Under the pieces are notes generated by a model that was not told where the DNA came from, searched no databases, and worked only from the letters and a program-made list of their open reading frames with translations. From NCBI RefSeq assembly GCF_003410055.1, contig NZ_QUZK01000042.1:62001-126000 (forward strand): a stretch of 64,000 nucleotides of DNA, written 5' to 3'. Source of the DNA: Wenzhouxiangella sediminis (GTDB taxonomy: Bacteria > Pseudomonadota > Gammaproteobacteria > Xanthomonadales > Wenzhouxiangellaceae). Made by a program: the position numbers and the translations under genes. Positions 7,217 through 34,696 of the stretch are shown here, one piece after another. Positions within the stretch are counted from its first letter, which is position 1; each line of letters begins with the position of its first letter.

Positions 7217-7262
7217 TGGTCGGGGTGACTGGATTCGAACCAGCGACTCCTGCCTCCCGAAG
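7217..7262 (-). repeat. Left attachment repeat (stranded tRNA-Pro 3' end)
   Basis: These 46 bp are identical to 34620-34665, the 3' part of tRNA-Pro(CGG) including CCA end, T arm, variable loop and the 3' side of the anticodon arm. Identity stops at 7262/34665 and also one base before the CCA end. Since the 5' half of the tRNA is missing here, this is the displaced original 3' end left by site-specific integration, marking the far edge of the island. Confidence 0.93.
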
Positions 7263-7474
7263 CCAAGTGCTATGTAAGTATGTTGAAGTCTACCAGTAGG
7301 CGCTAAGTGCTGTCAAATGGCGTTTTCAGGGGTTCGTCGGCTTGAAACGCGATGTAAATTGAGGCACAGTTGTGCCCAATATGTATAGATTAAAAAGTAT
7401 TTAAATTTTGACTCCTGCCCACGTTTTTTTGCTGATTCCAGGGTATTTCGGGGCAATCAGGTTCCGGAGCCCGC

Positions 7475-9790
7475 GTGTCTGATGCCGTAGCTCGCCTAAT
7501 GGTCCTCATGGGGGCGCCGGACGGCTCTCATCCGGACTGGCCTCAGGTGCGCCGCACCATGTCCCAGATTCTCGGCGATGTCGAGACCATCACGTCCCGG
7601 GTGACGGCCGCCCACTGGGTTGTGGCTCCTCTTAGGCAGATGGAAGCTCCGGCGCCGGCCAGCACCAGCGAGTCCCTTGGCGCCATGCCTAGCCGAGGTT
7701 GCATCACCCACTATCCGGTTTTTGCCGCGTTGGCCACACAGCCGATTGTGCCGCAGGCGGATGCCGCTCGAAAATTGCAGGCGCTGTATCTGGTTTCAAT
7801 TGCGTTGCGTGAGTACCACATCGTCAACGAAGGGTATGGGCCTCCGGTGGGCAGTGCCGAGCTCTCATGCAGGCGAATTGTGCGCGGCCGGTACTCGGAT
7901 GAGCGTATCGGCGCGATCATCCGTCGTTCCTCGAGTCCGATCTCGTTGTGCAATCAACTGGAGAAGCTTCAGCGTTCCAAGCGCCCGCTTTCGGAATTTG
8001 ACTTGAGCTTGGTAAGTGGGCTGTTACCCCTTCTGCGCGACGTTCGGGATGACCGGGACCTCCGCACAAGAAAAGGTGGTGGGCAAAGAAATCGCGAAAT
8101 CGAGACTACTGTCCTGGATGCTGCCGATGATGACCCTACATCCCGAAAGCCAGCGCTGATACTAGAACGTCCGGACGAAGAAACCCGCGCCGAGCTGCAG
8201 GCGGAAGGGCTCCCTACTGAGTACGAAACGACCCGGGAGACCCTCTATGCCGAGATGCCCCCGTCACGCAACGAGAACTTCCCGGCTCGGCAGCTAAGCG
8301 AGCACCAGGCCCAGCAGCGCCTGATTCTGAGGGCTCGCGCGTACAAGACGAACCAGCAGCAAGTTCCCAATCGGCGTGAAATGCTCCACGAGCCGGCGCT
8401 GGCTCCTTTGCTGCACCCTAAGGGCCCTGTGTCGCCACCAAAGGGTTCTGACCTGGACTGGACGCTCGATACACTGCTTGGTTTCATGCTTCTGACGGGG
8501 TGCGAGGAAAAGGATCTGCACCATGTACGGGTCTGGAGCAAGCATTCACAGGTGCCGCGCCAGCCACCGGCGCTGGGGGTGGTACTGGAATATGTGGAGG
8601 AATATGCGGAGTTCATGATGCCTGTTGCACGCTTACCCGACTCCTGGCGACCCAATTCGGAGTATCGACACCATTTCAGACGGCCCGCCAATCGCTTTTA
8701 TCTGAAAATTCCCACCCACCTGCCTATTGGAGAGCGGATTGTGAAGTTGGCCAGTCGGGTTCCCGAAGGCGGCCCGTTATGCGGGGACTCCCTTGGGCCG
8801 GCTGATGAACTGCCCAAGAAGCTGAAGGACCGGGTCTCCAAGCTCAACGATATCCACCACACCCATCTGACGCTCAATCGGATCAGTTTGTTCCTCTGGG
8901 GCGCGATCTACGCGCTCGATGGCGATATGGCCGAAGCGCTGCTGCTCAGCCGCCGTCATCGTCGCTCGAACGATTCGCGGCTCTATTACTACTCGACTCA
9001 GAGCGACCATCTACGAAACCAATATGCGAGAGTTTGGGGCGCCAAATCAAAACGGCCGTCGTCGAACGATAGGCGGCATGCCGTGCTGAAGGTTATAAAT
9101 CCGGACATCGGTTCGGCAGCGGTTCCGTATCGCGACAGCATCAGCGACCTCGTACGGTTAATGAAGGAGCGCATTTCCGTCCTCATGGCGGGGCGCGGGC
9201 GGCGTACAGCCTCTCGCTGGATCGAAATACACAATGCGATGACTGCCTACGTCATACGCCAGATTCAGTGGATGACGGGAATTCGCGCGGTCCGCGACCC
9301 GATCGAGCTGCCGCTGTACGCCGCGCGCTCAGGATTCCTGGGCGTGATCGACAAGGATTCCAACGACGAGTACGGGGCTCGTGTCGTCTGGCTGATTGAG
9401 CCGGTCCAGCAGCAGATTGAAACCTACCTGCAATACGTCGACTCCGCGACGCGCTCTATCTTCGGGGAGGTGAATCGCGAAGCCGCATTCCGCTTCATTG
9501 GAGAGGGGCCGGCGATTCTGCAAGTCAATCAGCGGCGGCTCGAGCAGCACTTGCCCGACTACCCGTTCGCGGCGAACTCCCACCGTCACTATCTGAGAAC
9601 CCGGCTTCGTGAGAAGGAAGTCGATGGCGGGGTTGTCGACGCCTGGATGGGGCATGGGGGCATTGGCGCTGAACCCTACGCCCGGCACAGTGCAATGTCA
9701 CCAATGGTGATGCAGGAGGGGACCGAGGCAGCCCTCAACTCGATTTGGGAAGAACTCGGATGGGAAGTGTTGCCGGGGAGCCAGCATTGA
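7475..9790 (+). CDS. Large divergent tyrosine recombinase (first of coupled pair)
   Basis: Predicted site-specific recombinase, 771 aa, about twice the usual integrase size. The catalytic C-terminal part is recognisable: WMTGIRAVRDP carries the box I arginine, SHRHYLRTRL the box II Arg-His, WMGHGG the conserved Gly-His, and EPYARHS the likely tyrosine nucleophile near residue 730. The first 500 residues match no domain I recognise and are rich in charged residues. The GTG start at 7475 has GGAG seven bases upstream; the next in-frame ATG is 7499. It lies 212 bp from the left attachment repeat and reads into the island. Its stop falls inside the next recombinase gene, so the two are translationally coupled. 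It probably acts with that partner in integration or excision. Confidence 0.72.
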   Translation: MSDAVARLMVLMGAPDGSHPDWPQVRRTMSQILGDVETITSRVTAAHWVVAPLRQMEAPAPASTSESLGAMPSRGCITHYPVFAALATQPIVPQADAARKLQALYLVSIALREYHIVNEGYGPPVGSAELSCRRIVRGRYSDERIGAIIRRSSSPISLCNQLEKLQRSKRPLSEFDLSLVSGLLPLLRDVRDDRDLRTRKGGGQRNREIETTVLDAADDDPTSRKPALILERPDEETRAELQAEGLPTEYETTRETLYAEMPPSRNENFPARQLSEHQAQQRLILRARAYKTNQQQVPNRREMLHEPALAPLLHPKGPVSPPKGSDLDWTLDTLLGFMLLTGCEEKDLHHVRVWSKHSQVPRQPPALGVVLEYVEEYAEFMMPVARLPDSWRPNSEYRHHFRRPANRFYLKIPTHLPIGERIVKLASRVPEGGPLCGDSLGPADELPKKLKDRVSKLNDIHHTHLTLNRISLFLWGAIYALDGDMAEALLLSRRHRRSNDSRLYYYSTQSDHLRNQYARVWGAKSKRPSSNDRRHAVLKVINPDIGSAAVPYRDSISDLVRLMKERISVLMAGRGRRTASRWIEIHNAMTAYVIRQIQWMTGIRAVRDPIELPLYAARSGFLGVIDKDSNDEYGARVVWLIEPVQQQIETYLQYVDSATRSIFGEVNREAAFRFIGEGPAILQVNQRRLEQHLPDYPFAANSHRHYLRTRLREKEVDGGVVDAWMGHGGIGAEPYARHSAMSPMVMQEGTEAALNSIWEELGWEVLPGSQH

Positions 9791-12700
9791 AAAGAAGCTC
9801 TGAAGAGCGCCGGCAGTCGCGTCTACAGGACGAGCAGCGCGCCCTTTCGACAGTAGAGCATTTACTGGGGAAGGTTGCCCCGGGTCTCGTCGCCAAACGG
9901 GCAGGGGCGGGACTGTCGCGAAAGGATTCCGAATCCTTGGTGAAACAAGTCGAGCCGGCCATCGAGCCGCGGCACTGGAAGGCCGCCCGCAAGCACCTGA
10001 GAAAACGTCTTAAGGATCTTGAGGCCGCCACGGGCGGCTCAGTCTGTCTGCCGCCGCCGGCTACCTACATCAAACGCGACAAATCCCCGCTCGCGGGCGA
10101 TGCAATGACCCTGGTCAGTGAGCTGGAAGTGTTGATCGAACGATTCCTGGTCGATGTGAGGGAAAACCTGGATGCGCCCATACATCCGGTGACTATCGAA
10201 CGGAAGCTGACTGAAAAGGAATCCAAGAAGAAGGATAAAAAGAGAGCTAAGGAGCAAAGGAACTCTGAGGAGCAAAAGGAAGCTGAGCGGAAAAAAGCCG
10301 AGAAGCAGAAAGCCAAGAGAGAGCACAACCATCGCTTGCGTACTCTGGGGCGAATTGTATTCTCGGCGATTGTCAACGGCGGTCTCCTGAACCAGAGCCT
10401 CTACCGGAAACTCCTCCCCGAACTCTGTGATGGACTTCACGCGCATAAGGAGCTGGCCTGGGTTTCGTTTCCGCTCGATGACCGTGATCCCGATGACCAT
10501 GACGATGATGACGAGGAGCCAGCCGGGGAGGGCATCGACTTTGATGCGCCGGTCCGGCGCTGGTTTCTGGACCCCGTGACGCTGGGGCTCGTCACTCGCT
10601 GGCATTCCGCATATTCCGGGGATGAGCGGCGCGAAGTCACTGCGCGCACCAAAGTACAGAACGCCCTGGGTCACTATGTGAAGTATCTCAGAACGCTCCC
10701 GATAACAGGTGCGGAACTGCGAACTGCGGCTGTAACCAACCCCAGAGAGCTCTTAAGGGCAGCCACTGCACGAACGTCGCTATATTTGCCCCCCGTGCTG
10801 GTCAATTTCCTCAGATCGACCAGCAGTGGCCAGTCCATGAGCGAGCGAACCTGGTGGCGTTACCAGTTCGATTTGATCGTCGATACGCCCGATCCATTGG
10901 AGGAAGTTTCGGACGCCACAGCCGGTTTGGCGACAACCGAACCCGAAGAGCCCGAGTTCAAGGGCGACAAGGCGGCTTTTTTCCAGCGTCAGGAAGACCT
11001 GATCAAGGTTCTGCACAAAACTCTGGGTGAGCCCGGAAACCTGAAAAAGGCGGACAAGAATGGCCCGGCCGTAAAGCGCATCGAGGCGGTGCTCGAGAAG
11101 CGGGAAGAGGATATGGCGCCCCTGCTGCACGCTTTCTACAGCTGGATCCTCTGGAAGCTGAAGCAACCATCCAAAAAGCAGGGACGCATTCGGTGCTCGT
11201 CCGCTCGCCGGTACACCAGCCGACTCGGCCAGGCGCTGATTGCCCTGGGGGCCGAATTGTCCATGGAAGGCATGGGCCCCGCGGACTGGGAGAGCTTCTA
11301 TGACGAGGTTATCGAAAGCCTCGATTCCGCAATTGATCGAACCAAGGCAATTGGCAACCTGAGAGACTTTCACCGCTTCCTGATGATCACTTTCGATGCT
11401 CCGCCGGCCGCTATAGACGGCGAGGTCGATGCCGCCGCCCGCACCCGTTCTACGCTGATATCGAGGGATGACTACAGGCGGCTGATGCAGGCCCTTTCCG
11501 GGGACGGAAAGCCCGGTCACCAGACGCAAGTGCTGAGGATCATCTCCATGCTGATGTTTCGGGCTGGTCTCAGGCCCAATGAACTGATCGGGCTGGAGTA
11601 TCGCCATATTCAGGGGGCGGCACGCGACCGGCTCAAGCAAGGATTAGCGGAGCCGATCCTCTGTTTGCACGCGACATCCAGCGAAGTCTTGAAAACACCC
11701 TCCGGCGTGCGCCAAATTCCCCTGTCTTGGTTTCTGACGCCCAAAGAAATGGAGGAATTTCAAGCGTTCCTCTACGCCAGGTTGTCCGTATACAGGGACT
11801 CGAACCTGCGGAGCGCCATCATTCTTACGCCCAGCCAGGGCGTCAACACGCGAATATCCTCCAGGGAGTACTTCGGAACGCTAACGGAACTGTTGCGGGA
11901 GATCACGGGTGACCCGGCGGTTGTGGCTTACACACTCCGCCACGGCTGCTTTTCGAAGATCTTCCGCAACGTGCTCGAGCCGCGTCGCAGGCACCAAAAT
12001 CCGTTCTCCAGGAATGGCCTCATGCCACGAGAAGCAATTTACGCCCTGAGTACGCTCGCCGGCCACCTTGACCCGGATATTACGCTGCAGTCCTACGTCC
12101 ACACCCAGGATATCGTGTGCCACCTTCATCTCCGGGAACAACTCAGAAATCTACCGCTAGGATTATGGGCCGCTCTGGAAGGACGAAAGGAAACTTCCCT
12201 GCATCAGCGGCGCGCGAGACACGCGGTCGGCGCTTCGGAAGCCAGCGAAGACGCCGAATTTGACCAGATGCACGATTCGACCAAAAGACTGATCAAGCAA
12301 CTGGATCCAGCTACACCCAAGGCAAGGGCCGGGCACAAGGTGCGCTTGCCAAGGTTCCAGGTTGAAGAGCCGACCTTGTTGGATCTCGATCTGGAGACGA
12401 TTCATGCGCTGCTCTTCTCGCTCCAACGGAACCACACACCGGAAGCCCGAGCGCGTCTCTTCAACTTGCCCGAAGCGCAGATCCAGAACTTCAAGGACAT
12501 GTGCCTCCGTCTGGCCGGCTACCGCACCGAGTCAACGTCGGGCATAAGGAATCTCCGGAACTTGAAGCCTAATATGAAGCCAAAGCGTCTGCCTGACCTT
12601 TACCGTCGCGCCCAACCCGGCGATTTCGGACCCGCACCGCCTCATCACTCGCGAGAGGAGATGGGTGAGGCAAATCGAATCTATCGGCTGCTGGCCCGGC

Positions 12701-13194
12701 GGGCGCGTGAAATGAATCTGGAACATACACGAGTCATCGAGGAGATCATCAAGCCCGTCCGGGATCTCCTTCTGGCACACTCCGGCAGCGAAGCGGTCAT
12801 CAGGGCAGTCAGCACCGATGGGTTCGCAGGTGCAATTCAGACGATCAGGAGTCTCCGGATCCCGCCGGAGCGAATAGAAGTTGAGATCGAGGCGCTCCCG
12901 CGCGTAGACGAACCAACACCAGGGGAGCGGAGTCAGCGGCTCAGAAGGCTAGCCAGAAGCCGAAAATTGCGCGTCAATGAGGCCAGCCACGCGGTCACTC
13001 GCCGGTCTCAGGCCTATCCCGAATTTGGCATCGTAAAAATCCGCGTCCTCGCGCTTGCGGCACTTGGAGTGGGGGAGCTGCGCCGCCCGTCACGGGCAAA
13101 CGTAGCCAACCGTGCAGGTTCTGGATGGCGGGTAGGCTGCTTCTATGGCATTGCGGCTATCTCCGCACTGTTGAAGGAGAAGCGCACTGACTAG
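9745..13194 (+). CDS. Very large tyrosine recombinase (second of coupled pair)
   Basis: Predicted tyrosine recombinase of up to 1149 aa. Residues 150-200 form a Lys/Glu-rich, probably coiled-coil segment. The catalytic core spans about 570-790: box I RAGLRPNELIGL (Arg610), box II YTLRHGCFS (Arg732), LAGHLDPDITLQ, and QSYVHTQD with the expected tyrosine. The histidine usually three residues before the box II arginine is a tyrosine here. About 350 residues follow the core, which is unusual. Start choice is open: TTG at 9745, ATG at 9760, or TTG at 9787, which overlaps the upstream stop and has GGGGAG six bases before it; the last looks best by ribosome site. IS3 remains directly follow. No third small partner gene is visible downstream. 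Confidence 0.7.
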   Translation: MGRTRMGSVAGEPALKRSSEERRQSRLQDEQRALSTVEHLLGKVAPGLVAKRAGAGLSRKDSESLVKQVEPAIEPRHWKAARKHLRKRLKDLEAATGGSVCLPPPATYIKRDKSPLAGDAMTLVSELEVLIERFLVDVRENLDAPIHPVTIERKLTEKESKKKDKKRAKEQRNSEEQKEAERKKAEKQKAKREHNHRLRTLGRIVFSAIVNGGLLNQSLYRKLLPELCDGLHAHKELAWVSFPLDDRDPDDHDDDDEEPAGEGIDFDAPVRRWFLDPVTLGLVTRWHSAYSGDERREVTARTKVQNALGHYVKYLRTLPITGAELRTAAVTNPRELLRAATARTSLYLPPVLVNFLRSTSSGQSMSERTWWRYQFDLIVDTPDPLEEVSDATAGLATTEPEEPEFKGDKAAFFQRQEDLIKVLHKTLGEPGNLKKADKNGPAVKRIEAVLEKREEDMAPLLHAFYSWILWKLKQPSKKQGRIRCSSARRYTSRLGQALIALGAELSMEGMGPADWESFYDEVIESLDSAIDRTKAIGNLRDFHRFLMITFDAPPAAIDGEVDAAARTRSTLISRDDYRRLMQALSGDGKPGHQTQVLRIISMLMFRAGLRPNELIGLEYRHIQGAARDRLKQGLAEPILCLHATSSEVLKTPSGVRQIPLSWFLTPKEMEEFQAFLYARLSVYRDSNLRSAIILTPSQGVNTRISSREYFGTLTELLREITGDPAVVAYTLRHGCFSKIFRNVLEPRRRHQNPFSRNGLMPREAIYALSTLAGHLDPDITLQSYVHTQDIVCHLHLREQLRNLPLGLWAALEGRKETSLHQRRARHAVGASEASEDAEFDQMHDSTKRLIKQLDPATPKARAGHKVRLPRFQVEEPTLLDLDLETIHALLFSLQRNHTPEARARLFNLPEAQIQNFKDMCLRLAGYRTESTSGIRNLRNLKPNMKPKRLPDLYRRAQPGDFGPAPPHHSREEMGEANRIYRLLARRAREMNLEHTRVIEEIIKPVRDLLLAHSGSEAVIRAVSTDGFAGAIQTIRSLRIPPERIEVEIEALPRVDEPTPGERSQRLRRLARSRKLRVNEASHAVTRRSQAYPEFGIVKIRVLALAALGVGELRRPSRANVANRAGSGWRVGCFYGIAAISALLKEKRTD

Positions 13195-13316: not shown

Positions 13317-13607
13317 TCACGATGAGGCCCGCTCAAAGGCCTCGGGGCTGATCCCGCCGAGATGGCTGTGCCGGCGGGTTCGATTGTAGAACATCTCGAT
13401 GTAATCGAAGATATCGGCGCGGGCCAGATCCCGTGTCTTGTACACGCGCTTTTTGATCCGCTCTTTCTTCAGGCTACTAAAAAACGGCTCGACAACGGCG
13501 TTGTCCCAGCAGTTGCCCCGCCGGCTCATGCTGGGCTCGAGATCATGCTCCCGACAGAACCGCAGCCAGTCGTCGCTGCCGTACTGAGTGCCTTGATCAG
13601 AGTGCAC
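13317..13607 (-). pseudogene. IS3-family transposase OrfB, C-terminal fragment
   Basis: Last 96 residues of an IS3-family DDE transposase. HSDQGTQY contains the second catalytic Asp, and SMSRRGNCWDNAVVEPFF carries the invariant motif with the catalytic Glu. The C-terminal FYNRTRRHSHLGGISPEAFE is typical. The first catalytic Asp and everything before it are missing: similarity ends abruptly at 13607, where unrelated sequence begins. It cannot be active. Strand and position relative to the OrfA stub suggest remnants of two tandem copies or one rearranged copy. Confidence 0.88.
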
Positions 13608-21838: not shown

Positions 21839-22244
21839 GGCGGATCCTCCCGGCAATGTCGATGACGTTGTTGGAATGGCTCTGGGGAGCCGGGCGTTGG
21901 GCATGGATGTCGGCGCGCTGGGCCTGCCCACTTTCTAGCGGCCCGAACAGGCGAGTGGCAACGGGACCGGGAACCGGCTGCATCTCGACCATGCCGCCGA
22001 CCAGGCCGGCGTCGAACATCTGCACGAACAGATCACCTTCGATCAGGTTGACCAGGTCCTCGGGGCCCGTGATGCGGTAGCGCTCAATCGCCTCGCGTGC
22101 CCAGGCGACCAGCGCCTCGTGGTTGTCCCGGGTGTCGGGCTGGCCCAGGGCCAGGCACATGGCCTGTCCGGGCCGAATCTGGTAGCGGTGCCAGAGGTAA
22201 TCCGCAAGGGCCTGCGGGCGGAGACGGGGAATGGACTCGTTCAT
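21831..22244 (-). CDS. Unknown 137-aa protein in integrase operon
   Basis: Not recognised. Begins MNESIPRLRPQALADYLWHR and has no signal peptide or membrane segment. The first 80 residues look folded, with helices such as NHEALVAWAREAIERYRI and EDLVNLIEGDLFVQMFDAG, while the last 40 are polar and Gln/Ala/Pro-rich and may be disordered. The ATG shares one base with the integrase stop, and the stop overlaps the next start by 8 bp, so it is co-translated with both. Its position between an integrase and a larger unknown protein suggests a job specific to that nested element. Confidence 0.6.
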   Translation of the reverse strand: MNESIPRLRPQALADYLWHRYQIRPGQAMCLALGQPDTRDNHEALVAWAREAIERYRITGPEDLVNLIEGDLFVQMFDAGLVGGMVEMQPVPGPVATRLFGPLESGQAQRADIHAQRPAPQSHSNNVIDIAGRIRHD

Positions 22245-23494
22245 CAGTCGTCCTCCTTTTTGTTGTTGTCGTTATGGGTGGAAGTGCCGGCCTGGGAGGC
22301 CAGCAGACGCGCCATCGCCGAGCCGTCCTGGCGGGTCAGGTTCGGGACATAGCGCGAATAAGTGGTAAAGAGCATCTGGGTCGTGGTGTGCCCGAGTACG
22401 CGAGCGACCCATTCGGGTGATTCGCCGGCTGCGAGCATCAGCGTCGCGGCCGTGTGGCGGGTCTGGTATGGCCGCCGATAGGTCAGGCCGAGATTGGCAA
22501 GCAGCGGCTTCCAGACCCGGTTGGTGAAGTTGCGATTCTCGATGGGTGCGCCGCGGCGGGTGCAGAAGGCCCACTCGACACCCTTGGGAGCGATCTCTCG
22601 CTGGGCCTCCAGCGCCTCGCGAACGGGCGGGAGCATCGGAATGTCCCGGTTGGAGTCGTAGGTCTTGGAGCCTTCCTGCAGTCGGCCCTGAACCAGGGTC
22701 TCTCGCACCAGGATCAGGTTGTTGGAGAAATCTACGTTGTGCCAGCGCAGGCCGTTGATCTCACCGCTGCGTATGCCGGTGTAGAACCGCACGGCTAGAT
22801 AGTGGCGATAGTCCGGGCGGACCCGTTCCAGAATCCGGTGGACCTCTTCCAGCGAAAACGGGTGGATATCCGGCTTCCTGGAACGCAAAGATTTGATACC
22901 GCGATAGGGCGAGGGGAACTCGTAGCGGTCCGCAGCCTCATCGAGAATCTGGCGCGCGAAGCCCATGACCTTGTTGATCCGGGCGTTGCTCAGCTTCCGG
23001 CCATTCGCGCGGTGACTGCCAGCGATTTTGGCGCGGAAATCCATTAGGTCTGCACGGGTGATCGAGCCCACGCGCCGGTTGCCGAATGCGGGCAGCAGGT
23101 AGCGATTGAGCGTGACGGTGACGGTCTCCCGGTAGCTGGGCCGCCATTCCGGCCCCTTTTCCCGCATCCAGGTCTCCGAGAACTCGCGGAATCGGGGTGT
23201 GCGATCTCTCTCCCGGGCAGGTGCGGTCCAAGCGGGCACTGAGGCGCGATCGGCGGCCCCGCCAGAAGGCCTGACTCCTGAGAACTGCAGGGCGCGAGAG
23301 CTGCCGGGGAAGGTGGCGCCGTAGTCGAAGGTGCCCGCAAGAATTTCGGATTCGATCCGGTCGAGGAGCTTTTGTACCTTGCGCCGGTTGGCGGGCGTGT
23401 TTGCCAACGCCGTTTGCTCCCGGCAGCGCTCGCCCTGGTAGTAGAAATCCAGAAACAGCTTGCCGTTGTCCGAGCGGGCTCGAACCTTACCCAT
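22244..23494 (-). CDS. int: Tyrosine-family phage-type integrase
   Basis: Site-specific recombinase of 416 aa, normal size. The N-terminus (KLFLDFYYQGERCREQTAL) is the arm-site-binding region typical of lambda-like integrases with a DUF3596-type start. The core-binding domain lies near residues 100-200 (FREFSETWMREKG). Catalytic residues are visible in YTGIRSGEINGLRW (box I Arg), RPYQTRHTAATLML (box II Arg-His), VARVLGHTT and FTTYSRYVPN (tyrosine nucleophile). It is preceded by an excisionase-like gene with 8-bp overlap. It is a different type from the two giant recombinases at the island's left end, so it probably belongs to a nested element inserted later. Its own attachment sites were not found. 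Confidence 0.93.
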   Translation of the reverse strand: MGKVRARSDNGKLFLDFYYQGERCREQTALANTPANRRKVQKLLDRIESEILAGTFDYGATFPGSSRALQFSGVRPSGGAADRASVPAWTAPARERDRTPRFREFSETWMREKGPEWRPSYRETVTVTLNRYLLPAFGNRRVGSITRADLMDFRAKIAGSHRANGRKLSNARINKVMGFARQILDEAADRYEFPSPYRGIKSLRSRKPDIHPFSLEEVHRILERVRPDYRHYLAVRFYTGIRSGEINGLRWHNVDFSNNLILVRETLVQGRLQEGSKTYDSNRDIPMLPPVREALEAQREIAPKGVEWAFCTRRGAPIENRNFTNRVWKPLLANLGLTYRRPYQTRHTAATLMLAAGESPEWVARVLGHTTTQMLFTTYSRYVPNLTRQDGSAMARLLASQAGTSTHNDNNKKEDD

Positions 23495-23723
23495 GGCTCA
23501 CGGCCCCGTTCGCCATCGGCACCAGCGGCGCGCTGTCCATCGAGAAGTTGCTCATGTCCTCCTCGATGGCTTCCCAGATGAACAGCAGCTTCCGGCCCCC
23601 GAACGGCCTGATATAGTGAATCCCCTCCAGGAGGACGGAATCCTTGAGGCGGTTTCGGATCGTGCGCGGGTTGTAGTGGATGCGCTCTGCGAGCTGGTCG
23701 GTGGTCAGATAGGTCTTGTCCAT
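23487..23723 (-). CDS. Excisionase-like small DNA-binding protein
   Basis: 78-aa protein beginning MDKTYLTTDQLAERIHYNPR, a winged-helix/MerR-like helix-turn-helix of the kind used by phage excisionases and recombination directionality factors; GIHYIRPFGGRKLLF is the usual wing. The ATG at 23723 has GGAGG in front; an open frame continues upstream to 23819 without a good start. It overlaps the integrase start by 8 bp, as many xis-int pairs do. It would bend DNA at the attachment site and steer the integrase toward excision. A transcriptional role cannot be excluded. Confidence 0.75.
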   Translation of the reverse strand: MDKTYLTTDQLAERIHYNPRTIRNRLKDSVLLEGIHYIRPFGGRKLLFIWEAIEEDMSNFSMDSAPLVPMANGAVSHG

Positions 23724-23752
23724 AATGGCCTCCGTATTCTTTTGGCTCAAAT

Positions 23753-23768
23753 GTTTCATTTTTGAAAC
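23753..23768. promoter_or_regulatory. Palindromic operator between excisionase and HTH regulator
   Basis: Perfect inverted repeat GTTTCA-TTTT-TGAAAC in the 127-bp AT-rich spacer between the divergent excisionase and HTH genes. Its position 30 bp upstream of the excisionase ATG fits a repressor site controlling the excisionase-integrase operon, probably bound by the divergent HTH protein. Confidence 0.5.
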
Positions 23769-23850
23769 GTTCGGGTCAAAATATAACCGATGTTTGCAGG
23801 GTGTCAAGTATTGGTGCAAAATTTTCTTTTTGTGGACGGATGGCCCAAAA

Positions 23851-25175: not shown

Positions 25176-26105
25176 TCAACCCGCTCGAGTCTGAATGCCT
25201 TCGTGGATGGTTTCGATCTGCTGGAAAACAGCTTCTACGACATCTTCCTTGCCAGTGAATAGCTCATCTGGGCCGGCGTGGTGAAGACGGGTAAAAGGAG
25301 GTTCGTAGAGCGCCTCCGGAGGCATTACACCGCGGGCGGTGAGTTGGTCGACGATCATCTCAACGAAGCGGATCTGGTCTGGGCTGAGGCTGCGGTCGTT
25401 CAGGAACTCGGCGAATGCTTCCTGGGCTGCAGATCGGTCCATACCGACCAGGCTTCTGACGAACCAAGCCAGTGAAGGGGCGCCGTTTCGTTCGAGCAGG
25501 TCGTTGAGCAAGCGGGGCCCGTCTTCGTCTCCGATCTCGCTCAACGTCTGTTCCAGTCCCTCTAAGTCTGTTTCGGTAAGCGGCTGGTTGGTGCGCAGGC
25601 GGTGGATGACCAGGTGGTCCTGGTGATTTTTTAGGTATTCGCGCACTTTCTTCTCGTACTGCGCCCCGGTCATCTTGGGCATGGGGACAACATCCTCGTC
25701 CCGGATGTCGCGGACCTCGTCCTGGAAGTTGGTGTAGATGACGGTGCGTTCCTTGCGCTCGAGTAGCCGCACCAGGCCGCGCAGACGCAAGCGTAGGTCT
25801 TCGAGCAGCTCCAGGTTCGTGCCTTCCCACCACTGGGCTTCCTGAACGGCCGCGCGCAGCCCGAGCTGCTCCTTGACGGCAGGCACGTTGGACTTCTCTT
25901 CCAGCAGGCCGGCCAGCTCGACGACGCGCTTTCTGTGACGCTCGAAGTCGCCGGTGTCAGCTTCGATCAGCGCCAATTGCAGGCGTAGGGCTGTCAGGTC
26001 GAACAGGCGCGATTCGATATCGTCGTTGGGTTGCTCGCTGGGCAGTCCGGCCACCTCGTCGTGCAGTACTTGCCGGTCGGTGTCGCTGATCCGCTGCCAG
26101 GCGAT
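25176..26105 (-). pseudogene. hsdR: Type I restriction enzyme HsdR, C-terminal remnant
   Basis: About 310 codons matching the C-terminal helical region of EcoEI-type HsdR: LRLQLALIEADTGDFERHRK, RTVIYTNFQDEVRDI, and the terminal PPEALYEPPFTRLHHAGPDE. The DEAD-box motor and the nuclease domain are absent. The fragment is joined near 26105 to the 5' end of hsdM in another frame, so the 3' part of hsdM, all of hsdS and the 5' part of hsdR have been deleted in one event. It has no start of its own and cannot restrict DNA. Confidence 0.82.
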
Positions 26106-26395
26106 TTCATGAACGGAAAGACCTCGTCGCGCACGACTTCGAACAGCCGCTCCGGCGCCATTTCGCGGAAATGCGACCAGCGCAGAAGCTGCTGGTCCTC
26201 CCCGAAAAGGCGCTCCCGGGAGTATTTTCCAGTGCGGCGGGCCTTGTTTTCCTCGCGCTTCTCGATCTCGTCCAGGCGCTTGATGAACAGCAGATAGGTG
26301 AGCTGCTCGACCACCGACAGGGGGTTGGAAATCCCCCCGGCCCACATCGTGTCCCAGATCTTGTCGACCTTCGATTTGATTTCGCCGGTAATCAT
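26106..26395 (-). pseudogene. hsdM: Type I modification enzyme HsdM, N-terminal remnant
   Basis: The first 97 codons of HsdM: MITGEIKSKVDKIWDTMWAG, then QLTYLLFIKRLDE, the classic N-terminal helical domain, ending at EVFPFMK. The methyltransferase domain (NPPF, SAM motif) is missing. The ATG at 26395 keeps its AGGAG ribosome site. Beyond the junction the hsdM frame stops at 25994 after a short nonsense tail. If expressed, it would be a 133-aa truncated protein without catalytic ability. Confidence 0.85.
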
Positions 26396-26599
26396 TTCTG
26401 CTCCTGGCCTTGTTCCCCCGAGGTTGGGACATGATTCTAGCGGCTATGCCCGGACAGGAAACAGGGGATCGGGGAGAGGAGGGTGCCGGGCACAGTTGGG
26501 CAGGAGTCGAATCCCGCCCGTGGCCTTACCTCGCTGGGGTTCTCGGTGGACGGCGGGGCGCGTCCTACAAATCGCCGTGCGCCGCCCAAAGGTGGTCAG

Positions 26600-27630
26600 C
26601 TAGGGGGGAGAGGGCCCTGGAATCAACTTGCCCGGCACCCACTTCAGATAAGCCACCGTGCCGAACAGCTCGACGAGCGACTGGAAGACGACGACCACCA
26701 CCGCGGCCTGCCAAGGCTCGGGCAGCGCCAGGGCGATGGGCAGCACCACAAAGGAATTGCGGGTACCGAAGCTGAAGGCCAGGGTTCTGGCCGAACGCGC
26801 TGGGAGCTGGAACGCGCCGCCGAGGGCCTTGCCCAGGAACGCGGCGAAGACCAGGTAGGCGATGAAGATCAAAAGCACCTGCAGCATGACCGCGGAAAGC
26901 CCGGCCACCGTGTTCACCTGCGAAACGGCGACAACGAAGACAACCAGTGCCAGCAGCGGCGTGGGCAGCACGCCCAGGCCCTGAATCCACCGCCTGGCCT
27001 TCGGGCTGCGCTCGGCCAGGCGCTCGGTCACCCACGCCAGGGCCAGAGGCGCGAGAATCAGCCCTGCAAAGGCGCCGAGCAGGTCGGTGCTGATGGCGGC
27101 CTGAAGCCACTCCGCGCCCAGGAAGAGCCCGAGATAGACGGGCAGGACCAGCAATTGCGTGAGCAAAAGCAGGGGTGCCGCGGCAACGGCCCTTCCGGCA
27201 TCGCCCTTGCCCAGCTGGGTGAAGCTGATGAACCAGTCGGTGCAGGGGGCGAGCAGCACCAGCAGCACACCGGCCTGCACGACTGGCGAGACGGGCAGCA
27301 GCGCCATCATCCCGCCCAGGACCAGGGGAATGACCAGGAAATTGAGAGCAGCAGGGCCGCCAGGAAACGCCAGTCCTTGAAGCCCTGACCGATACGCGTC
27401 AGGGGAACCTGGGTAAAGGTGGCGTAGAGTAGCCCCCCAAGCAGCGGCCATAGGGCGACTTCGAGTCGTGACGTGACGTTCGGCAGGCCCAGCCCGATGG
27501 CCAGGCCCGCCAGGATCGCAATCAGCAAGATCCAGCATTGTTGGCGTTCCATCCAGTCGCGCAAGGGCAAGGATCCTTCCCGGGTTTCCAGTGACAAGCG
27601 TCTGGCATCGTAAGCCTTTTGGGTACCCAC
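26600..27630 (-). pseudogene. Arsenite permease, ACR3/bile-acid-symporter superfamily, frameshifted
   Basis: Inner-membrane transporter of the arsenite efflux type split into two frames. The first part (GTG 27630, or ATG 27552 giving MERQQCWILLIAILAGLAIG) runs to FLAALLL; the second resumes as LNFLVIPLVLGGMMALLP and continues through APCTDWFISFTQLGKGD and AFSFGTRNSFVVLPIALALP, both ACR3-like signatures. The break is at the GAGAG run 27344-27348, where two extra bases (a duplicated dinucleotide) would explain the shift. Joined, it would be about 340 aa with ten helices, a full-length protein. It may be a real recent mutation or a sequencing error. It diverges from the metal efflux operon and has no ArsR gene directly attached. 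Confidence 0.8.
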
Positions 27631-27732
27631 ATACTGCTAGCGTGCAGAGTTGTTCAGAGGTTCCTTAAGCAGTGCGGCTGCAGGGCCGGGCTGTTTTTAA
27701 TCCGCCGATTCTTTCATGTTAACCTCAGTGCC

Positions 27733-34216: not shown

Positions 34217-34575
34217 CCATTCGCCGAGACAATCATCGGCTGCTTCACAGGTCTCGATTCCCTCACTGCCGGAAAAAGTGCTGCGCTTCAGCAGTGCGAG
34301 TTGGCGCAGGAAGATTGCCGAGATGAGGGGTAAAACGAGTGGTTTGTCCCATCCGCCTGTTCGTTCCGGACAGACCAGCCAATATTTCATGGGCGGCCCG
34401 ACTCCGGGCACGGCCGGGCAGGTGTCGAATTCGCCCCGTTGCTGTCACGAGCCGGGCACGATTTGGGCACAGAATGGGCACAAGATCGATCCGGCGCTGC
34501 AGGAAGAGGGATCCCGGTCGGCCGGGGAGGGCGCCAGGAGTTCAGGGGCTTAGGCTGTATCTTTATGATCCGGAA
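34217..34575. other. Right-end spacer of the island
   Basis: There is no confident gene. Frames over this stretch look random. One rightward frame ends with HEPGTIWAQNGHKIDPALQE and a stop at 34553, which resembles the non-conserved tail of some phage-type integrases next to a tRNA target, so a truncated integrase end may lie here; this is weak. The segment runs from the PII-like stop to the tRNA terminator. Confidence 0.35.
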
Positions 34576-34604
34576 CGAAAAACGCCGGCTCGAGGGCCGG
34601 CGTT
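34576..34604 (-). terminator. Terminator of tRNA-Pro
   Basis: Leftward transcript forms a 9-bp stem AACGCCGGC with GCCGGCGTT and a six-base loop, then a run of five T (A-run 34578-34582 on the plus strand partly in the stem). It lies 16 bp beyond the CCA end of the tRNA. Confidence 0.8.
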
Positions 34605-34619
34605 CTTGCGGGATTCGGC

Positions 34620-34665
34620 TGGTCGGGGTGACTGGATTCGAACCAGCGACTCCTGCCTCCCGAAG
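34620..34665 (-). repeat. Right attachment repeat inside tRNA-Pro
   Basis: Identical over 46 bp to 7217-7262, same orientation. It covers the CCA end through the 3' part of the anticodon loop (plus-strand end CCGAAG). Crossing over between the two copies would excise a circle of 27,403 bp and leave one intact tRNA gene. Confidence 0.93.
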
Positions 34666-34696
34666 ACAGTGCTCTACCAGGCTGAGCTACACCCCG
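34620..34696 (-). tRNA. tRNA-Pro, anticodon CGG
   Basis: 77-nt cloverleaf on the minus strand. The acceptor stem CGGGGTG pairs with CACCCCG; the D arm is GCTCAGCCTGGTAGAGC; the anticodon stem CTGTC/GGCAG holds loop TTCGGGA with anticodon CGG; the T arm GCTGG-TTCGAAT-CCAGT and an encoded CCA (34620-34622) complete it. All conserved positions are present. Its 3' 46 bp are the attachment core of the island and were supplied by the element. The gene has its own promoter and terminator. Confidence 0.95.

Follow-up and report, generated by a model that had tools for sequence, protein, structure and literature searches.

Several described systems couple more than one tyrosine recombinase (YR). RIT elements carry three YR genes (ritABC), whose products all have a possible catalytic motif, while the Tn554 family encodes TnpA, TnpB, and TnpC, a set in which one YR is abnormally long, a second is coupled to it, and the remaining protein is a small accessory factor (PMC3414803). 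GInts have three consecutive YR genes followed by a small gene for an HLH protein (ginABCD); GinC is without the first Arg, the flanking repeats are imperfect and 10 to 17 nt long, and tRNA targets are not mentioned in the paper's text (PMC5385486). SEs are strand-biased circularizing integrative elements, found mainly in Gammaproteobacteria, with an intA-tfp-intB operon encoding two RHRY enzymes, together with srap, and with 13- to 19-bp imperfect inverted ends and 6-bp footprints (PMC10214605).

Here, we compare these systems with a genomic island of Wenzhouxiangella sediminis located in a 64,000-nucleotide stretch of DNA (the window, to which all coordinates refer). A small gene, C, two large genes, A and B, and an ordinary integrase gene, INT, apparently make up a recurring kit that moves genomic islands, in many cases to tRNA genes, and for which we found no published name. 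The island in the window is a 27-kb imported block bounded by a perfect 46-bp direct repeat of the tRNA-Pro 3' end (7217 to 7262 and 34620 to 34665). The right-hand copy forms part of the integration target, an intact tRNA-Pro(cgg) gene on the minus strand (34620 to 34696), and the tRNA-distal copy, also on the minus strand, starts at the anticodon loop (tRNA nucleotide 32). In the congener G757, the sequence homologous to the left flank of the window lies directly against an intact tRNA-Pro gene. With a 3'-end direct repeat and an intact tRNA at one end, the block is a tRNA-targeted genomic island; together with G757 and independent islands of the same plan, the repeat supports the initial annotation in placing coupled recombinase genes, as a module, at the edge of an island bounded by tRNA sequence. 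The segment next to the tRNA-proximal copy (34404 to 34619) probably represents the att site's right arm, since the same segment precedes another att copy in the congeners G756 and G811. The island consists of two tandem islands that have fused, with loss of the internal att.

Gene A (7475 to 9790, plus strand; 771 aa, GTG start) begins 213 bp inward of the tRNA-distal repeat copy. Gene B (9745 to 13194, plus strand; 1149 aa) has a TTG start, with the next ATG five codons on, and overlaps A by 46 nt, confirming that two large plus-strand open reading frames (ORFs) overlap here. Because A-B pairs are kept in about 40 loci and both genes are under purifying selection relative to the sister species (dN/dS of 0.31 for A and 0.20 for B), chance ORFs are excluded, and the two ORFs are real and coupled.

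Judged by its residues and modeled fold, B is a catalytically complete tyrosine recombinase. Its catalytic set is R610, K650, R732, H774, and Y784, and the R, K, R, H, and Y are present in all 54 members of the B family. The box II His is replaced by Tyr729 (Y729xxR732), as had been noticed at the outset, and Tyr occupies this place in 2 of the 54 relatives. B matches the Pfam Phage_integrase model weakly (E = 2e-4, below the cut-off), but PDB searches with its family profile find XerA, Tn1549 Int, and Cre, and the AF2 model of B resembles XerA (E = 1e-5, prob 1.00). The long N-terminal region includes a Lys/Glu helix, and the predicted Lys/Glu region and long tail were both recovered, as a Lys/Glu-rich stretch at about residues 150 to 195 and a C-terminal extension of roughly 320 residues.

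Protein A, by comparison, returned no significant match in Pfam or NCBIfam. A fold search with a model of A placed YRs in all of the top five positions, including Cre, archaeal Xer, and Brujita Int, at weak scores (prob 0.5 to 0.9, E = 0.05 to 0.6), and hhalign aligned the C-terminal domain of A with those of INT (E = 6.5e-6) and B (E = 8e-5). These matches point to a YR-like protein with a tyrosine-recombinase fold. A keeps Arg604, Lys627, His705-x-x-Arg708, and Gly726-His727, and His738 occupies the position of the catalytic Tyr. Across the A family, the Arg (48/48), Lys (48/48), and His (47/47) are invariant, and Tyr occurs at the catalytic position in 14 of 46 proteins; Y735 is likewise not conserved. 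The claim that both proteins retain Arg, Arg-His, Gly-His, and Tyr landmarks is thus right for B and for most of A but wrong for the Tyr of A, given His738 and the lack of conservation, and the idea that both proteins are catalytically complete is ruled out for A, which by alignment is without the catalytic tyrosine. Since 14 A proteins do have Tyr at this site, some lineages may have an active A. As a separate observation, secondary structure suggests a tandem, degenerate second YR domain at residues 320 to 540, with Tyr505 invariant (48/48) and a weak hhalign match (14%, E = 0.002).

All complete loci have A followed by an adjacent or overlapping B, and at least six encode the two as a single polypeptide of 1.3 to 1.9 kaa. 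Identities of A and B co-vary across 46 loci (r = 0.96, or 0.89 without close pairs; 0/2000 permutations). Directly upstream of A, homologues usually have the small gene C (11 loci by profile, others by position). The corresponding site in the window is the left arm between att and A (7263 to 7474); a C ORF was sought there and in the sister species G811 and found in neither, and C has been lost in both. Because C and INT recur in relatives, the two-component type proposed in the initial annotation is rejected. The outcome that it had named as refuting this type, a described trio whose third gene is merely lost here, was largely borne out with regard to the missing gene, although no named trio was found to which the module belongs. 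A was found in 14 of 369 sampled gammaproteobacterial genomes, and the trio is also present in Alphaproteobacteria and on plasmids, there with no INT within reach; viral contigs scanned with both proteins yielded no relatives.

The same island encodes a canonical integrase that was absent from the initial annotation. INT (22244 to 23494, minus strand; 416 aa) is convergent with A-B and has an Arm-DNA-bind_2, Phage_int_SAM_3, and Phage_integrase architecture; it belongs to the Arm-DNA-bind_2 class, with scores of 87 and 67 bits for PF12167 and Phage_integrase, above the curated cut-off. A 110-aa ORF (23487 to 23819, minus strand) overlaps the INT start by 8 nt, has no Pfam match, looks helix-turn-helix-like by eye, and is a candidate excisionase or regulator. 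In gammaproteobacteria, INT is a recurrent statistical partner of the A-B module: it occurs in 10 of 14 genomes with A versus 2 of the 355 without A (P = 6e-15), is encoded downstream of B in 14 of 15 loci (convergent in 12 of those), co-diverges with the module (r = 0.79), and neighbors an A-B fusion in two loci (L040 and L184). The stronger proposition that INT occurs only with A-B fits 10 of 12 gammaproteobacterial INT genomes and was rejected, as most betaproteobacterial INT loci in a scan of named genomes are without A-B.

Association with tRNA genes extends to relatives. In 12 to 13 of 60 loci, a tRNA 3' fragment oriented antiparallel to A lies next to the start of A or C; strict T-arm matches numbered 14 against 1.06 expected (P ~ 1e-11). 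The module is therefore not always beside a tRNA-derived repeat, as the initial annotation had asked, and the majority of A-B loci have no such fragment, although the frequency is far above the roughly one locus expected. Complete islands were delimited in Aeromonas caviae (tRNA-Asp, 55-bp direct repeat, 46.4 kb), G593 (tRNA-Gly, 47 bp, 66.4 kb), and G461 (tRNA-Arg, 37 bp, 60.6 kb), and G679 has an adjacent tRNA-Val repeat. In all five islands, counting that of the window, the tRNA repeat begins at tRNA nucleotides 29 to 32, in the anticodon loop. Aeromonas and two other genera share the plan seen in the window, with C-A-B at the tRNA-distal end. Defense-type cargo such as type I restriction-modification is also seen. 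The insertion boundary of a BREX-like island in Vreelandella is obscured by insertion sequences.

We lean slightly toward a reading in which A and B are subunits of one heteromeric YR machine that moves the island together with C and INT. B would break and rejoin DNA, carrying out strand exchange, and would form a complex with A. A, which has the recombinase fold and keeps most of the residues that activate the phosphate but in most cases lacks the nucleophile, would most likely bind DNA and act as an architectural partner, occupying recombinase positions within the synapse. With C, a presumed accessory protein lost here, and INT, A-B would join the circular island to its chromosomal site, which in the window would be the anticodon loop of tRNA-Pro(cgg), leaving the intact tRNA at one end and the 46-bp 3' fragment at the other. 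INT may assist in or share the tRNA reaction. Counting against this reading are the lack of a tRNA fragment at most A-B loci, the trios on plasmids with no INT within reach, the missing C and fused tandem structure of the window's island, and the A proteins that do have Tyr.

Alternatively, INT alone might integrate the island at the tRNA, with A-B(-C) having another role at the distal end, such as copy-out circularization, directionality control, or the movement of a nested trio element. Islands with a lone Arm-DNA-bind_2 integrase have an enzyme of the same INT family (about 50% identical) and likewise target tRNA 3' ends, but they have no A-B-C within reach, and their INT lies directly downstream of the tRNA. 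Since 29 of about 50 such A-B-free loci are beside tRNA-Arg or tRNA-Met, INT, itself a canonical integrase, may carry out the tRNA reaction unaided; the distal att of these islands was not found within the stretches examined. In G593, too, an INT remnant lies ~300 bp from tRNA-Gly and C-A-B is 60 kb off at the other end. However, this adjacency is mostly lost where A-B is present (1 of about 21 to 23 loci; P ~ 1e-5), a conclusion that is the same whether the set with A-B is taken as 26, including about 4 loci whose sole flag was a weak match or the INT ORF itself, or as 22. Furthermore, G009 has A-B beside a tRNA without INT, and the islands of the window, A. caviae, and G461 have INT far away from the tRNA and A or C next to the att copy. 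We consider integration by INT alone unlikely.

The trio could also be a divergent member of a named one (Gamma-Mobile-Trio [GMT], SE, or GInt) whose third gene was lost here. SEs and GInts are similar in make-up, each having a small protein, an incomplete YR-fold protein, and a large active YR (PMC10214605, PMC5385486). As in SEs, an ordinary YR, a large active YR, a catalytically deficient YR-fold protein, and a small accessory protein occur together, with the operon at the element end; as in GInts, an operon with several YRs, one of them incomplete, and a small protein sits at one end of a site-specific cargo island. Papers citing Mahata et al. (2024) describe GMT islands as bearing a named trio in gammaproteobacterial islands rich in defense cargo, recalling the hosts and type I restriction-modification cargo seen here. 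Compared with the published description of SEs, however, the order here is C-A-B, only B is a complete enzyme, INT usually lies outside the operon on the other strand, A-B fusions occur, and the trio extends to Alphaproteobacteria, where SE proteins were not found. Compared with the description of GInts, gene order and number differ, and GinC lacks the first Arg, whereas A keeps that Arg and lacks the Tyr. The short, imperfect repeats of both systems also differ from the perfect 37- to 55-bp tRNA direct repeats of the five islands. RIT elements share adjacent, overlapping recombinase genes, but the operon here has two such genes, one without the conserved Tyr. Judged by their descriptions, SE, GInt, and RIT elements are analogous systems whose gene content does not fit. 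The Tn554 family is comparable in make-up, but in the module both members of the coupled pair are giant, the second of them usually has no Tyr, the small gene precedes the pair, and an integrase is associated as a fourth component. No NCBIfam, Pfam, or PHROG model covers A or C beyond generic integrase models, A, B, and C from many loci matched only such generic models in NCBIfam and Pfam, and RefSeq labels all three only as hypothetical protein or integrase; no GMT-named NCBIfam model matched ~28 A, B, and C proteins, although the library may contain no such model. Membership in a named trio therefore seems improbable to us.

That the module here is a dead remnant, with A-B persisting by linkage only, would fit the absence of C in the window and G811, the fused tandem island with its lost internal att, and the interruption of the G811 INT gene by an insertion sequence, but it is very doubtful given that A and B are full length and under purifying selection in both species.

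Returning to the heteromeric machine, we tentatively suggest, at somewhat less than even confidence, a class outside published descriptions, defined by a C-A-B operon, an obligate A-B pair that is sometimes a 1.8-kaa double recombinase, a dedicated and co-inherited tRNA integrase, a marked tRNA-distal end, and a crossover in the anticodon loop. A widespread, apparently unnamed system would thereby be added to the few multi-recombinase systems described as moving islands. Two questions arise: why a synapse would include a subunit with Arg, Lys, and His but no tyrosine, and how the same island makes use of both a canonical tRNA integrase and a giant heteromeric recombinase. The A-B complex is tractable owing to co-divergence and to the fusions found in nature. 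Because annotation pipelines label A and C "hypothetical," island ends, among them those of defense and metal-resistance islands, are being missed, and the A, B, and C genes are useful markers.

Two recombinase-type genes, A and B, lie at one end of the tRNA-bounded island, both on the plus strand and at the places where the initial annotation had described them: A at 7475-9790 (771 aa) and B at 9745-13194 (1149 aa), with 46 nt shared. Pfam searches returned nothing significant for A and a sub-threshold Phage_integrase match for B, and NCBIfam searches gave no match for either, while PHROGs group B with phage integrases. Directly 3′ of B is what appears by eye to be an IS3-family transposase fragment (13317-13607).

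Arg610, Lys650, Arg732, His774, and Tyr784 of B are invariant among 54 B relatives. The reported replacement of the box II His by Tyr in B is real, but besides the window it occurs in a single relative, and the box II Arg stays intact. In A, Arg604 and Lys627 are invariant (48 relatives) and His727 is kept in 47/47, with box II retaining H in 35/47 and R in 31/47. A catalytic Tyr had also been claimed for A; the position is instead His738 in the window, and relatives carry Phe (16), Tyr (14), His (7), or other residues (9). Given this variability, A has, judging by its relatives, a recombinase fold but no conserved nucleophile.

Both predicted folds resemble a tyrosine recombinase core, as had been proposed. 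The B family profile matched solved structures including XerA, Tn1549 Int, and Cre, and an AF2 model of B matched XerA, Tn1549 Int, VchIntIA, and Cre at probability 1.00. The model of A is confident from about residue 326 onward, not before; a PDB fold search with it put tyrosine recombinases in all five top places, at weak E-values. A tyrosine-recombinase fold in A is further supported by profile-profile alignments of its C-terminal domain to the cores of INT, a canonical 416-aa integrase in the same island (E 6.5e-6), and of B (E 8e-5). Tyr505 of A is invariant in 48/48 relatives. The secondary structure of A residues 320-540 (window 8432-9094) resembles a second, degenerate recombinase domain, which profile comparison supports weakly. 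At two loci (L019 and L020), about residues 790-895 of B, in the tail that follows its core, weakly match the N-terminal part of IS3 transposases in NCBIfam, which hints at a helix-turn-helix there.

B directly follows A in ~40 homologous loci, and the two form a single polypeptide in L038 (1825 aa), L040 (1767 aa), L044 (1762 aa), L090 (1862 aa), L091 (1941 aa), and L184 (1797 aa). Pairwise identities of A and B covary (r=0.96), and dN/dS between the window genome and its sister species, G811, indicates purifying selection on both (A, 0.31; B, 0.20). Adjacency, fusions, covariation, and selection together provide strong comparative evidence, not a demonstration, of a physical A-B complex. Each fusion of 1.76 to 1.94 kaa contains both A-type and B-type cores, and INT adjoins the fusion in L040 and L184.

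The 3′ part of tRNA-Pro(cgg) forms a 46-bp perfect direct repeat at 7217-7262 and 34620-34665, the latter within the intact tRNA gene. Since the homologue of the left flank in the congener G757 is directly abutted by an intact tRNA-Pro, the segment between is an insertion. In G811, A and B (96.5% DNA identity to the window) follow an att copy in which the tRNA part is identical at 39/46 positions; the differences stop at the anticodon loop, after which the left arm is almost unchanged, a pattern that places the probable crossover in or near CCTGCCTCCCGAAG, in the anticodon loop region. The first G811 island ends at a second att copy (46/46; contig 1, ~1122054-1122099); before this copy stands the right-end segment known from window 34405-34619, and after it comes a second island with czc metal-resistance genes. 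Because att is retained between the two islands there, the 27.4-kb window island is best read as two tandem islands (A-B-INT and czc metal resistance), with the internal att lost within 26521-27703. Type I restriction genes survive as a fused remnant in window 25176-26432 (PADLOC match to the HsdR C terminus); hsd-like genes appear intact in G811.

A T-arm scan of the 2.5 kb upstream of A at 60 loci gave 14 strict matches against 1.06 expected (P~1e-11). Nearly all of these run antiparallel to A; the loci are not fully independent, L083 and L184 having the same sequence. In islands whose far end was recovered, the partner, where found, is an intact tRNA gene encoded on the opposite strand from A. 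Repeats involve tRNA-Asp in Aeromonas caviae (55 bp; 46.4-kb island), tRNA-Gly in G593 (47 bp; 66.4 kb), tRNA-Arg in G461 (37 bp; 60.6 kb), and tRNA-Val in G679, directly beside the gene; with the window, 5/5 start at tRNA nt 29-32, in the anticodon loop. Since no tRNA fragment was found in those 2.5 kb at the remaining loci, all plasmid loci included, predicted tRNA targeting is frequent without being universal, contrary to an invariable association with such repeats. Cargo of the L079 island (G593:C2, ~66 kb) and of L081/L205 resembles large defence arrays, with BREX-like BrxL and PglZ (by eye) and type I RM.

A two-component type lacking a third small gene had been suggested; relatives instead have gene C (~140-215 aa) immediately 5′ of A, at 11 loci by profile and at others by position (e.g., L045, L048, L081, L160, and L163), and a fourth gene, INT. 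In the window and G811, the 212-bp stretch from att to A contains no C gene. INT (22244-23494; Arm-DNA-bind_2 and Phage_integrase domains) lies downstream of B in 14/15 loci with INT, convergently in 12 of those 14, and its divergence tracks that of A and B (r=0.79). Among 369 gammaproteobacterial genomes, A occurs in 14, INT in 12, and both in 10 (P=6e-15). A gene of 281-320 aa separates INT and B at L015:7118-7963, whose product has an HD domain (Pfam), and at L160:11370-12332; INT of G811 is interrupted by an element that by eye resembles IS66. The partnership is not exclusive, since 22 of 80 INT loci in named genomes, nearly all gammaproteobacterial, have A or B within reach. In A-B-free islands, INT evidently serves the tRNA site, directly downstream of tRNA-Arg or tRNA-Met, and it lies just downstream of a tRNA at 29 of ~50 loci without A-B versus 1 of ~21-23 with A-B. 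These observations speak for the main alternative, which we consider rather unlikely, in which INT alone serves the tRNA site and A-B does something else, such as copy-out circularization like that of SEs (strand-biased circularizing integrative elements). We lean slightly toward a mechanism in which B would carry out strand exchange at the island left end with A as its obligate noncatalytic partner, C would be accessory, and INT would share or assist the reaction.

SEs and GInts (ginABCD elements) likewise pair an ordinary recombinase with a large active one and add a small helper and a recombinase-fold protein whose catalytic residues are incomplete (PMC10214605, PMC5385486). The A-B system differs, however, in gene order, in the kind of catalytic defect, in its tRNA targets, and in the length of its repeats, so that, compared by published descriptions, it lacks the operon features by which SE, GInt, and RIT (ritABC) elements are defined.
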